NCBI GenBank assembly: GCA_900114885.1
Contig: FOUN01000002.1
Coordinates: forward strand, 310,001-374,000
From: Psychrobacillus psychrodurans
GTDB taxonomy: Bacteria > Bacillota > Bacilli > Bacillales_A > Planococcaceae
Direction: 5' to 3'
DNA: 64,000 nt
Positions 2,689-44,498 of this stretch are shown here, piece by piece. The notes beneath the pieces are model-generated. The model was not told where the DNA came from. It searched no databases and saw nothing but the letters and a program-made list of their open reading frames with translations. A program made the position numbers and the translations under genes. The first letter of the stretch is position 1, and every line of letters starts with the position of its first letter.

Positions 2689-3161
2689 GCATGAAAAACT
2701 GGATGAAAAACTTCTTCTACTTAGATGAAGATGAGGAAGCATCAGAAGCGCAGCAACCAAGACCTCAGCAGCAAAAAACAGTTGATAATAATATAAAGCA
2801 AACTGTAAAGTCTGCTCCTAAAGAACGTAAATTTAATACGATTCCAAAGGATATGAACACTCCTAATCTCGTTAGTATTCAAAATGTCCAAAAGTCCTCA
2901 AAAGTAATATTGATAGAGCCGAGAGTGTATGCAGAAGCACAAGATATATCTGAACACTTAAAAAGTAAAAAGGCTGTAATTGTAAATTTGCAACGTATTG
3001 ATAAGGAGCAGGGAATTCGAATAATCGACTTTTTAAGTGGGACAGTGTACGCTTTAGGTGGAGACATACAAAGAATAGGTACGGATATATTCCTTTGTGC
3101 ACCAGATTCTGTTGAAGTCGATGGTGCAATATCGGATTATTACTATAATGACTTAGATTAA
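2685..3161 (+). CDS. sepF: Cell division protein SepF
   Basis: SepF bundles FtsZ filaments and anchors the Z-ring to the membrane. The 158-residue protein has the expected plan: an N-terminal amphipathic helix (MSMKNWMKNFFYL), an acidic and Gln/Pro-rich linker to about residue 60, then the SepF core (KVILIEPRVYAEAQDISEHL, RIDKEQGIRIIDFLSGTVYA, GDIQRIGTDIFLCAP). It overlaps the end of ylmE by four bases and precedes ylmG, the normal division-cluster order. Confidence 0.95.
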   Translation: MSMKNWMKNFFYLDEDEEASEAQQPRPQQQKTVDNNIKQTVKSAPKERKFNTIPKDMNTPNLVSIQNVQKSSKVILIEPRVYAEAQDISEHLKSKKAVIVNLQRIDKEQGIRIIDFLSGTVYALGGDIQRIGTDIFLCAPDSVEVDGAISDYYYNDLD

Positions 3162-3179
3162 CAGAGGAGTATTTAAATT

Positions 3180-3443
3180 ATGGGATTAGTTTTATCTTTA
3201 ATAAGCTGGGGTGTTCAAATTTATACGTATGCATTAATAGCGTATATTTTAATGTCATGGGTTCCGAGCATTCAACAATCAGGTTTTGGAAAGTTTTTAG
3301 GGAAAATATGTGAGCCATACTTAGAACCATTTAGAAAAATTATTCCTCCATTAGGGATGATTGATATCTCACCAATCGTGGCAATTTTTGTATTAAACCT
3401 AGCAATGACAGGCATATATTATATAGCTAATATAGTTGTCTAA
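3180..3443 (+). CDS. ylmG: YggT-family membrane protein YlmG
   Basis: An 87-residue YggT protein with two hydrophobic segments. The first, around [18 protein letters not shown], is followed by the conserved loop [22 protein letters not shown], and the second is [17 protein letters not shown]. Family members sit next to sepF and are tied to membrane or division-site organisation; no enzymatic role is established. A GAGG ribosome-binding site precedes the ATG. A short terminator hairpin follows at the stop codon. Confidence 0.92.
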
Positions 3444-3467
3444 CCTCACTTTCGTGGGGTTTTTTAC
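3443..3467 (+). terminator. Short intrinsic terminator or attenuator after ylmG
   Basis: ACCTCAC-TTTC-GTGGGGT forms a 7-bp stem with one G-T wobble, followed by a run of T. It lies between ylmG and ylmH, so it may reduce rather than stop transcription into ylmH. Confidence 0.6.
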
Positions 3468-3491
3468 TATAGTCGAAAGGGAAATATTAAT

Positions 3492-4280
3492 ATGGAAAAT
3501 GTATTGCAACATTTTAGAAAAGAAGAACAGCCATTTATAGAACAGGTTGTGAGTATGATGCGGGAAGTTGAGGATCGATATGCTCCTAAGTTGACGGACT
3601 TTCTAGACCCAAGGCAGCAATTTATCGTAGACTCGATTCGTAGGCAATATGAAGAGATTGACTCTAGCGCTCAAGGTGCACTAGAGGATGCGGAGAGAAG
3701 AAGAGTCTTATTGTTTCCTTCTTATTTTACTCCATCTGATAACGATTTCTCTTCGAAAGTAGTGGAAGTTCATTATCCTACTAAATTTGTTACGCTAAAG
3801 CACAAGGATGTTCTTGGTTCAATGATGTCACTAGGAATTGATCGTAGTAAATTTGGTGATATACGCGTACAAGATGGAGCCATTCAGTTCGTCGTTGCCT
3901 TAGAGGTTTTAGATTACGTTCGAGCTAATTTCACATCCATTGGGAAAGTGAAAGTTCATATAAATGTGATAGAAGATCCAATTGATTATTTTGTTCAACA
4001 GGAGGAATGGATAACTGATACTTTAACGGTTAGTTCCCTTAGGTTAGACACAGTGATTGCGGCAGTTTTTAATATTTCTCGTCAAAAATCAGCATCCCTT
4101 ATTCAAGCTGGTAAGGTCAAAGTGAACTGGTCAGAAAAGGATCAGGTATCTCTTGAGTTACAAGAACTTGATTTACTTTCTATTAGAGGGCATGGAAGAG
4201 TAAAATTAATAATGATCGAAGGAAGAACAAAAAAAGATAAATTACGACTACAAATAGGCAGGTTAGAACTTAAAAGTTAA
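3492..4280 (+). CDS. ylmH: S4-domain RNA-binding protein YlmH
   Basis: A 262-residue protein with an N-terminal alpha/beta region and a C-terminal S4 RNA-binding domain from about residue 182 (LRLDTVIAAVFNISRQKSASLIQAGKVKVNW, here given by its span). YlmH homologues bind stalled 50S-peptidyl-tRNA and can work in ribosome rescue alongside RqcH, whose gene lies about 24 kb downstream in this window. It has a weak GGGAAA ribosome-binding site and sits in the conserved place before divIVA. Confidence 0.92.
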   Translation: MENVLQHFRKEEQPFIEQVVSMMREVEDRYAPKLTDFLDPRQQFIVDSIRRQYEEIDSSAQGALEDAERRRVLLFPSYFTPSDNDFSSKVVEVHYPTKFVTLKHKDVLGSMMSLGIDRSKFGDIRVQDGAIQFVVALEVLDYVRANFTSIGKVKVHINVIEDPIDYFVQQEEWITDTLTVSSLRLDTVIAAVFNISRQKSASLIQAGKVKVNWSEKDQVSLELQELDLLSIRGHGRVKLIMIEGRTKKDKLRLQIGRLELKS

Positions 4281-29867: not shown

Positions 29868-30066
29868 GTGAAATCCTTCCAGCACTTGCTCCTGCGCAAA
29901 GCTCGTCGCAGAAAGGAAGTTCGTTTGCTCCTGCGCGAAGCTCGTCGCAGAAAGGAAGTACGTTTGCTCCTGCGCGAAGCTCGTCGCAGAAAGTGCGTTT
30001 GCTCCTGCGCGAAGCTCGTCGCAGAAGAGCGGTGTCGGTTCTTTCGTAGGCGCTTGCGCTTTTCTA
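29868..30066. repeat. Dispersed GC-rich repeat with a 39-bp internal tandem amplification
   Basis: Starting with GAAATCCTTCCAGCACTTG and ending GCGCTTGCGCTTTTCTAA, this copy belongs to the family also seen at 42981, 54157 and 62229. A 39-bp module (GCTCCTGCGCGAAGCTCGTC... ) is repeated at 29888 and 29927, again at 29966 in a 35-bp form, and partially at 30001. Both strands stay open in one frame because 39 is a multiple of three. The encoded Arg-rich or SATSFAQEQ repeats look like by-products, not proteins. Confidence 0.8.
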
Positions 30067-42675: not shown

Positions 42676-42864
42676 TTAAACGCGCTCAATTTTTCCTGAT
42701 TTTAAAGCTCTCGCAGAAACCCATACACGTTTTGGTTTACCGTCTACAAGAATACGTACTTTTTGAAGGTTAGCTCCCCATGTACGTTTTGTAGAGTTCA
42801 TTGCGTGAGAACGAGCATTACCCGAACGAGCTTTACGCCCAGTGATTGCACATACTTTTGGCAT
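42676..42864 (-). CDS. rpmB: 50S ribosomal protein L28
   Basis: A 62-residue L28 ([20 protein letters not shown], then [20 protein letters not shown], with the C-terminal [10 protein letters not shown]). The start at 42864 follows AAAGGAGG; an upstream in-frame ATG would add an unrelated 31-residue leader. Only one cysteine is present, so this is not a four-cysteine zinc-binding form. Its opposite orientation to spoVM is as in B. subtilis. Confidence 0.95.
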
Positions 42865-42980: not shown

Positions 42981-43281
42981 ACAGCATAGAAAAGCGCAAG
43001 CGCCTGTGTAAGACCCGAAAAGCGCTGGAAGGATTCCAAGAAAGGCGTATTTTGCCTTTATTGAAATCTTGAAGCGACTCGAGGGGCTAGGCGCTGGAGC
43101 TGGACAGCATAGAAAAGCGCAAGATGCCGTTTAGCAGTGAAAAGCGCTGGAAGAATTTCAAGAAAGGCGTATTTTGCCTTTATTGAGATCTTGAAGCGAC
43201 CCGAGGAGCTAGGCGCTGGAGCTGGCCAACATAGAAAAGCGCAAACGCTTATGAGAGTCCCGAAAAGCGCTAGAAGAATTA
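42981..43281. repeat. Tandem array of a dispersed repeat, 2.4 copies of about 122 bp
   Basis: CATAGAAAAGCGCAAG recurs at 42985, 43108 and 43230 (spacing 123 and 122). Each full copy ends with GGGCTAGGCGCTGGAGCTGG-like sequence, the reverse complement of the AGCTCCAGTGCCTAG start of the copies at 54157 and 62229. The third copy is cut off near 43281. It opens the 42865-44135 gap, which has no gene I can support. Confidence 0.85.
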
Positions 43282-43315
43282 GTTTAAGAAAAATAAACAG
43301 TGAATAATACCGCTA

Positions 43316-43500
43316 TGATTTTCGCTTCAGGCGGACGCTTTCCGCGGGCGTTGCCTCAGCCTCCTCGCTGGAAAACATATGCTCCTGCTGTTACTCGTCG
43401 CAAAGACATTGTCCAAACAAAGTTTGGTCAATGTCTTTGCTGCGGGGTCTTCATCTAACGCTTTTCCCGCTGGAGTCGCCGCCTTACGCTACAATCAGTT
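43316..43500 (+). repeat. GC-rich palindromic repeat (second family), copy 1, carrying a nested hairpin
   Basis: It runs from GATTTTCGCTTCAGGCGGAC to CCCGCTGGAGTCGCC and on to CTACAATCAGTT. Related copies are at 46318 (opposite strand), 62427 (same strand) and 62839 (opposite strand). A stem-loop with 19-bp arms and one mismatch (GCAAAGACATTG...CAATGTCTTTGC, 43400-43440) is inserted in its middle. Confidence 0.8.
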
Positions 43501-43562
43501 AAGTAGTAGTCCTTAATCATAAATTAATATCAAACGTTTATGATAAACACGATGAATATGCC

Positions 43563-43601
43563 GGGTCATATAAAGGCATTATCCAATGCATTCGACCCAA
43601 C
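43563..43601. other. Two-tier stem-loop in the rpmB-yloU gap
   Basis: GGGTC...GACCC encloses GCATT-ATCC-AATGC. There is no T-run on either side, so it is not a classical terminator. Function unknown. Confidence 0.35.
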
Positions 43602-43673
43602 GAGTAGAAAGTAACTTTAGTAATTTGATTCTCCCCATTAGGAATAAAATATATTGGTAAAATTATCCTTTCC

Positions 43674-43799
43674 GCAAGTAATTGGTGATAGATCGCTAGT
43701 AAATATAGACTTAGAGCAAGTAAATCCTTTGCGACCGCAAGTAAGCTTTAGGTGGAAGCAAGTAAACGATAGGTGAGAGCAAGTAAAGATAAATTAAGA
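43674..43799. repeat. Array of six exact-length 21-bp degenerate repeats, core GCAAGTAAA
   Basis: Units begin at 43674, 43695, 43716, 43737, 43758 and 43779, each exactly 21 bases. The first 8-9 bases are conserved (GCAAGTAAT, GCTAGTAAA, GCAAGTAAA, GCAAGTAAG, GCAAGTAAA, GCAAGTAAA). The remaining 12 vary, apart from TAGGTG shared by units 4 and 5. No protein or RNA gene overlaps it. The array lies about 250 bases before the yloU promoter. Confidence 0.82.
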
Positions 43800-44052
43800 T
43801 CAAATCATTCATTAAATATTAGGATATAAATGCTTCTTAAGTATATTTCATCTGTGTTCATGGTACTTTAAGTGCCTATAGAATAAAAAGGACAGTATAC
43901 AACGCAGAGGCTCTAAATTAGTTATGAAAATCTTTAAAAAGGGTATTCTTAGGACTAGTAAAGGACAGAGTGTCTTTTTACCTGATTTCCCAAATTTACT
44001 TAAAAGTTTATTCATTTACTAACTAACACATATCACTAAAACATTGAAAAAG

Positions 44053-44135: not shown

Positions 44136-44498
44136 ATGTCAATTGAATTGAAAAATGAATTCGGACTAATTGATATATCACAAGATACAGTTGCTCAAAT
44201 TGCTGGTGGAGCAGCTATTGAATGCTATGGGATAGTTGGTATGGCATCAAAGCATCAAATTCGAGATGGATTAACAGATATATTAAGAAAAGAAAATTTC
44301 ACTAAAGGTGTTTTAGTTAGACAAGAAAAAGATAATCTACATATTGATATGTATATAATTGTTAGCTACGGTACGAAAATTTCAGAAATAGCCTATCAAG
44401 TACAGTCAAAAGTAAAATACACACTAAACAAATCTCTTGGTATGTCAGTGAAATCCGTTAATGTGTATGTTCAAGGAGTTCGCGTGGCTAACGTGTAA
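44136..44498 (+). CDS. yloU: Asp23/Gls24-family protein YloU
   Basis: A 120-residue Asp23-family protein with IDISQDTVAQIAGGAAIECYG at the N-terminus, then VRQEKDNLHIDMYIIVSYG and IAYQVQSKVKYTLNKSLG. These proteins are linked to envelope homeostasis and pair genetically with fakA. The ATG at 44136 follows GGGAGG by about seven bases; an upstream in-frame start lies over the promoter region and is rejected. fakA follows after 16 bases. Confidence 0.9.
   Translation: MSIELKNEFGLIDISQDTVAQIAGGAAIECYGIVGMASKHQIRDGLTDILRKENFTKGVLVRQEKDNLHIDMYIIVSYGTKISEIAYQVQSKVKYTLNKSLGMSVKSVNVYVQGVRVANV

Follow-up and report, generated by a model that had tools for sequence, protein, structure and literature searches.

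The gap between the divergent genes rpmB and yloU of Psychrobacillus psychrodurans holds a short run of regularly spaced direct repeats, and the question raised by this locus is whether such an array belongs to one gap and its genes or to something larger. In the window, i.e., the whole 64-kb stretch of DNA that was analysed, an earlier sequence-only reading had described six non-coding units, each exactly 21 bp long, at 43674-43799, and this was borne out by reading the units directly and by a de novo fixed-period scan. The units open, as had also been claimed, with GCAAGTAA or a word one substitution away, the latter being the case for unit 2. The features of the locus, in window positions, are as follows.

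42676..42864, minus strand: left neighbour, divergent, from the ORF list; we take it to be rpmB (ribosomal protein L28), from its sequence and the sequence-only reading
43560..43952, plus strand: longer subfamily unit that holds the array, with flanks on either side common to other copies
43656..43668, plus strand: left block, the imperfect 13-bp palindrome GGTAAAATTATCC, from conservation in 30 six-unit arrays
43674..43694, plus strand: unit 1, GCAAGTAATTGGTGATAGATC, from the fixed-period scan and direct reading
43695..43715, plus strand: unit 2, GCTAGTAAATATAGACTTAGA, opening with GCTAGTAA
43716..43736, plus strand: unit 3, GCAAGTAAATCCTTTGCGACC, opening with GCAAGTAA
43737..43757, plus strand: unit 4, GCAAGTAAGCTTTAGGTGGAA, opening with GCAAGTAA
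43758..43778, plus strand: unit 5, GCAAGTAAACGATAGGTGAGA, opening with GCAAGTAA
43779..43799, plus strand: unit 6, GCAAGTAAAGATAAATTAAGA, opening with GCAAGTAA
44136..44498, plus strand: right neighbour, yloU (Asp23-like), from the ORF list; the gene name is that of the sequence-only reading

The de novo scan, which looked for words recurring at least four times at one period of 14 to 30 bp under five settings, returned this array at 21 bp as its sole hit in the 64-kb window; no other fixed-period array with a period in that range was detected there. When the window was searched for AGTAA-N16-AGTAA with at most one mismatch, 25 matches were retrieved, against a mean of 8.55 and a maximum of 15 in 100 shuffles, and the exact matches, five in all, every one lie inside the array. 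The predicted RNA fold of the array is nothing unusual (z = +0.75 and +0.53), and no Rfam family scored above threshold in the rpmB-yloU gap. A sub-threshold Rfam match to a plant microRNA elsewhere in the gap was taken as chance. The array had been placed about 250 bases from a presumed yloU promoter; its end lies 337 bp upstream of the yloU start codon (ATG at 44136), and a figure of about 250 fits solely an upstream in-frame GTG at 44052.

The window array belongs to a dispersed family of intergenic DNA elements. The triplet GCAAGTAA-N13-GCAAGTAA-N13-GCAAGTAA, with at most two mismatches, occurs 265 times in the host genome (G000) versus 0 for the reversed pattern, and the pair GCAAGTAA-N13-GCAAGTAA occurs 436 times versus 12 at the same tolerance, so that the genome-wide search for further arrays that had been proposed finds many of them. 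The family was sampled through 46 stretches around such matches besides the window, containing 50 array clusters. Isolated GCAAGTAA cores are at background, with no enrichment: 14 exact ones were counted in 349,625 bases, and 60 anagrams sampled for comparison average 14.9. One subfamily, of about 20 copies, has common flanks; in an alignment of 12 copies, two others align with the longer unit of the window over about 390 bp and the rest over shorter parts, and BLAST of the longer unit in its own genome gave 46 rows, the best others being 73% and 72% identical over 392 bp. Whole arrays have also been multiplied in tandem, with periods of 167 to 226 bp. Most array clusters are single rather than paired. 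A pair is present at locus L207, where two arrays, at 3016-3141 and 3290-3373, point towards each other across about 150 bp of a single gap.

An array generally consists of an imperfect 13-bp palindrome and, 5 bp further on, a row of units that usually numbers six. When 30 non-redundant six-unit arrays whose steps are all exactly 21 bp were compared, the GCAAGTAA core proved close to invariant in all units; conservation in the spacer is weak and covers about nine positions, and the final three spacer positions prefer A-S-M. The consensus block before unit 1, TGGNAAAAWTTWTCCNTTYC, is imperfectly palindromic between -18 and -6, with GG at -18/-17 in 25 and 26 of the 30 arrays and CC at -7/-6 in all 30, and conservation fades past unit 6. 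Six units are found in 60 of 89 single chains in stretches fetched from the host genome, and in 66 of 99 clusters of at least four units in a wider set drawn from four species with the GCAAGTAA core. Arrays with the core GCAACCAA, found in other species, mostly have five (26 of 49 clusters), and one locus of another genus has 14.

At 47 host loci the core-to-core step is 21 bp in 357 cases, 20 bp in 25, 19 bp in 6 and 22 bp in 2, which upholds the earlier proposal that 21-bp phasing is kept despite divergent spacers. We consider this step to be kept, because indels would be expected to be common if it were neutral, given how far the spacers have diverged. The cores recur every two helical turns and thus share one side of the helix. 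Of the 14 short 20-bp steps in six-unit arrays, 10 fall at the third (middle) interval, an excess with p = 4.6e-5 if independence is assumed, the steps being partly non-independent. When periods of 15 to 27 bp were scanned de novo, the host loci, which had been picked for arrays, gave 91 chains at 21 bp, one at 27 bp and zero at the other 11 periods; stretches from five other species, not selected for arrays, gave 7 chains at 21 bp, one of them low-complexity, and one chain each at 18 and 24 bp, both from the same species as the low-complexity chain.

Arrays sit at the same places in G000, G004, G007 and G008, the partner of the window array in G008 having five units. Between orthologous pairs, cores are 92.5%, spacers 74.9% and flanks 82% identical (19 of 21 pairs). 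Detection through the cores could bias this comparison, which was therefore repeated on just the 89 units that were dispensable for detecting the partner array, and in this bias-controlled count over 20 pairs 660 of 712 core positions (92.7%) and 650 of 860 spacer positions (75.6%) are identical. The YloU of P. psychrotolerans is 98% identical to that of the host (tblastn, relatives in 80 loci). In the rpmB-yloU loci of P. psychrotolerans and P. antarcticus, the two closest by YloU, no array was detected by scanning, which, together with the near-lack of matches in two species (G002 and G015, below), makes the element dispensable; by these scans, seven Psychrobacillus rpmB-yloU loci in all have no array in the gap.

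Across the genus the step stays and the word changes. Seventeen of 19 Psychrobacillus species have three or more triplet matches, always with a step of about 21 bp, built on GCAAGTAA, GCAACCAA, AGTGTTGCG or TTATGCTCG, the last two having been found by de novo scanning of stretches from species without GCAANNAA arrays. Triplets of GCAAGTAA number 265 in G000, 120 in G004, 81 in G007, 68 in G008, 5 in G014 and 1 in G009; those of GCAACCAA number 226 in G013, 187 in G009, 49 in G006, 46 in G016, 11 in G011, and 10 each in G003 and G010. At up to three mismatches, AGTGTTGCG triplets number 60 in G001, 34 in G018 and 31 in G012, and the same search picked up a few AATGTTGCG-like matches (6 in G013, 3 in G005, 2 in G009 and 1 in G006); TTATGCTCG triplets number 71 in G013 and 52 in G017. 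Across all patterns tried in the 19 genomes, G002 has zero matches and G015 one. The cores are largely exclusive, though one core to one genome is not a strict rule: G013 carries both GCAACCAA and TTATGCTCG in number, plus a third near-match. The reverse complement of AGTGTTGCG is CGCAACACT, and GCAA therefore recurs. Within Psychrobacillus the reversed control gave 0 for the searches with GCAAGTAA to TTATGCTCG, and 1 in one genome in a further search. At locus L389 (positions 3082-4194) in G017, eleven TTATGCTCG sub-arrays of 3-5 units stand in tandem, one of them under a reverse ORF of 107 aa.

At the level of the order, 33 of 261 genomes carry the GCAAGTAA triplet, and cores in other genera include GCAACTAA, GCAAACAA, GCAAGCAA and GCAATTAA, of the GCAA type. 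A wider search matched 22 of 398 genomes; among these, the matches in G399, G593 and G405 are ORF-covered, those in G403 and G439 form no chain, and those in G055 and G419 look A-rich, and fewer than 22 are therefore real. Single loci with a chain, 36 in all and for the most part from other genera, were compared with their ORFs: at 26 the chain is not covered by any ORF of at least 100 aa, and the 10 covered ones are possibly coding; the core label in this check is the first one fitting at 6 of 8 positions and not a dialect assignment. Outside Psychrobacillus the reversed control is nonzero in places, with up to 5 matches in genus g3 (in G211) and, in the wider search, 8 in G268, 6 in G241 and 4 in G029. 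The reversed-pattern matches in G211, G215, G268 and G241 (genus g3) and in G029 may be further 21-bp dialects or chance. At L141:1583, in G029, 21-bp units carry yet another word, GTTACTATCGA.

Different words can occupy the same gap. In G008 the rpmB-yloU gap carries an array built on GCAAGTAA; Bacillus sp. FJAT-22090 and P. soli (loci L055 and L057) have 21-bp arrays of GCAACCAA there. Of 33 fetched GCAACCAA stretches of G006, seven align with G000 stretches, and in five of these seven both arrays lie in one gap with the same flanking genes, with matching orientation in four and opposed orientation in one; a single case among the five was recognised only by eye, as the array at L348 is under the script threshold. 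By eye, no unit-by-unit homology between dialects is visible in the shared gaps, and the spacers are unalignable. The shared gaps fit a concerted change of core in place, the alternative being that arrays settled repeatedly in the same tolerant gaps.

The position and strand of the arrays, which the sequence-only reading had proposed to check, were tabulated for clusters with both neighbours called. The 89 GCAAGTAA clusters comprise 38 parallel and 17 antiparallel to co-directional neighbours, 32 in convergent gaps and 2 in divergent gaps, one of these two being the window copy, which was put in this class by hand, as rpmB is under the 100-aa cut. The suspected link to the yloU promoter is thus not supported, given how rarely arrays use divergent gaps, and what stands of that interpretation is the kept 21-bp step and the existence of further arrays. 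The palindrome block, the prevalence of six units and the retention of the step with other cores in other species were beyond the reach of a reading of one sequence. Among 38 GCAACCAA clusters, 5 are parallel, 17 antiparallel, 14 convergent and 2 divergent, so that the orientation bias is opposite for the two cores (p = 0.0065 for GCAAGTAA, p = 0.017 for GCAACCAA), and therefore argues against a role at transcript level. Where the upstream gene is co-directional, a terminator-like hairpin separates it from the array in 27 of 37 cases, versus 7 of 37 in the shuffled control. The usual place of an array is downstream of an intrinsic terminator; few occupy a divergent gap, and the window copy is an exception. 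There is no strong polar signal relative to replication: of 54 clusters listed for G004 and G008, 34 are oriented along the direction of the fork (p = 0.08). Among the matches listed, clusters are unevenly spread in G008 and G004 and scarce near dnaA, with none within 0.69 Mb in G004 and one within 0.35 Mb in G008 (before rounding), origin distances and cluster choice having been made by hand from the lists.

Among described repeats, the closest kind is the staphylococcal STAR repeat, with another core and spacing. STAR elements are interspersed intergenic direct repeats of S. aureus with a conserved core, locus-specific variable spacers and changing number, whose function and mode of spread are unknown; the core is 14 bp long and GC-rich, T(G/A/T)TGTTG(G/T)GGCCC(C/A), at least 40 bp lie between cores, and locations are not common to species (PMC3532100). 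The present arrays are likewise interspersed intergenic direct repeats. They differ from STAR in having GCAAGTAA in place of the GC-rich motif, cores of 8 to 12 bp set 21 bp core to core with 13 bp between, a palindrome block, loci common to species, and a core that differs by species. REP sequences are extragenic palindromes of 20-40 bp in many copies (PMC3733652). Our arrays resemble these in having many extragenic copies, mostly behind genes; unlike them, the units are direct repeats without a hairpin, and the palindromic left block is just 13 bp. Iterons of plasmid origins are direct repeats of 17-22 bp, roughly two turns of the helix, and may be accompanied by an inverted repeat; the 21-bp direct repeats agree with them in type and length. 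In contrast to iterons, there are dozens of chromosomal copies here, and Pfam named no replication initiator gene among 10 neighbouring proteins at four loci. DNA uptake sequence dialects are species-specific short genomic words enriched as single copies, and the present words are similarly species-specific variants of a short word, whereas single GCAAGTAA is not enriched. CRISPR arrays combine a short repeat and variable spacers at a fixed pitch; here, by contrast, the core is too short, and orthologous spacers are homologous and drifting. Pfam named no cas gene among the same 10 proteins. A literature search, which covered few subscription papers, returned no description of these 21-bp arrays.

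We consider a row of DNA-level binding sites with a role for the host to be the best explanation, one that we believe and doubt in about equal measure. A putative sequence-specific protein would bind the cores cooperatively, one per unit, and binding may start at, or get help from, the palindrome block. Its specificity would shift between lineages together with all of its sites. Most cautiously, the bound arrays might act chromosome-wide, in nucleoid or domain architecture or in insulating adjacent transcription units, given that their many positions are extragenic and that their direction relative to genes is not consistent. Binding arrays are supported by six being the commonest number and by the shorter step falling most often mid-array (three plus three), as well as by the kept core and step amid drifting spacers, the background level of isolated cores, the location of most copies outside transcription units, and the change of core at an unchanged step in related species. 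Counting against this explanation, matches are lacking or nearly so in G002 and G015, six units are not universal, G013 mixes cores, the orientation bias differs between dialects, and the tandem whole arrays and the 390-bp subfamily show dispersal of the kind expected of a mobile element. A bolder version, a genome-wide DNA address system with dialects in which a lineage word is read by a co-evolving putative protein needing several copies on one helix face, seems to us rather improbable. If it were true, a shift in specificity would make dozens of arrays change their word in concert while places, pitch and block structure stayed, and the system, serving to organise the chromosome or to label self against non-self, would be of an undescribed kind.

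A possible though doubtful rival is that the arrays are mobile elements, selfish or non-autonomous, of the REP/MITE sort, whose units would be transposase or recombinase sites and whose dialects would reflect different transposases; the ends of Mu- and Tn7-like elements carry multiple transposase sites and are paired around a transposase gene. Dispersal is evident in the roughly 20 subfamily copies with shared flanks, the longer units of about 390 bp and the tandem whole arrays; moreover, location behind terminators and avoidance of divergent gaps look like tolerance, and several dialects can coexist, as in G013. Nevertheless, a transposase leaves unexplained that orthologous cores are kept better than spacers, Pfam found no transposase among ten proteins taken from the surroundings of three dense clusters and an array pair (three of the proteins without a Pfam match), and BLAST of the window element against phage and plasmid records gave no match. 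We find it very unlikely that the arrays are RNA-level elements transcribed from the gene before them, be it as a terminator, an attenuator or a stability element in the 3' UTR. They do come after genes, and GCAAGTAA arrays are more often parallel; however, the terminator-like hairpin usually precedes the array, the bias is reversed for GCAACCAA, and neither a fold nor an Rfam family emerged for the window copy.

An operator for yloU or rpmB would account for the array in their divergent gap, which is also array-bearing in G008, Bacillus sp. FJAT-22090 and P. soli, yet scans of seven other Psychrobacillus loci show none there and divergent gaps are otherwise all but avoided by GCAAGTAA arrays, which makes this reading highly improbable. 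Barely credible, finally, is a neutral slippage relic or decayed coding repeat. Tandem periodicity would suit it, as would pattern scans of viral contigs, where similar words are mostly coding heptads (9 and 18 stretches, nearly all within ORFs with heptad-like repeats, and three stretches with a match outside any ORF). Against it, spacers are unrelated while cores are kept, and indels are purged; the three forward frames of the 50 host arrays are open in 0, 3 and 0 cases (reverse frames in 6, 16 and 10). A coding repeat, which the sequence-only reading had raised as a decayed sequence with a 7-residue period, is ruled out in the host genome by these closed forward frames together with the 20-bp steps. 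To our knowledge, interspersed bacterial repeats have usually been described without a clear reader. For the binding-site explanation, two-turn phasing, kept cores and species-wise core change offer a direct handle, as the specificity of the putative protein must track the core, and 19 related genomes with known dialects make a search for this protein and for the effect of the arrays practical.

The window contains further repeats of other kinds. The array had originally been said to have a different core, implying a second 21-bp array, which the de novo scan did not find in the window; what was meant is likely the 39-bp repeat found at 29886-30026, for which the output of Tandem Repeats Finder also includes a poor row at 21 bp. 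This 39-bp tandem array (TTGCTCCTGCGCGAAGCTCGTCGCAGAAAGGAAGTACGT, 3.7 copies) is flanked by repeats resembling dispersed elements. The rpmB-yloU gap also holds a 122-bp repeat in 2.4 copies at 42981-43280 (AGCATAGAAAAGCGCAAGCGCC...), with similar stretches in gaps of the host and related genomes, and an element with CTTCAGGCGGACGCTTTCCGCGGGC... at 43310-43510, similar pieces of which occur in the rpmB-yloU gaps of loci L051, L053 and L054, and in L348.
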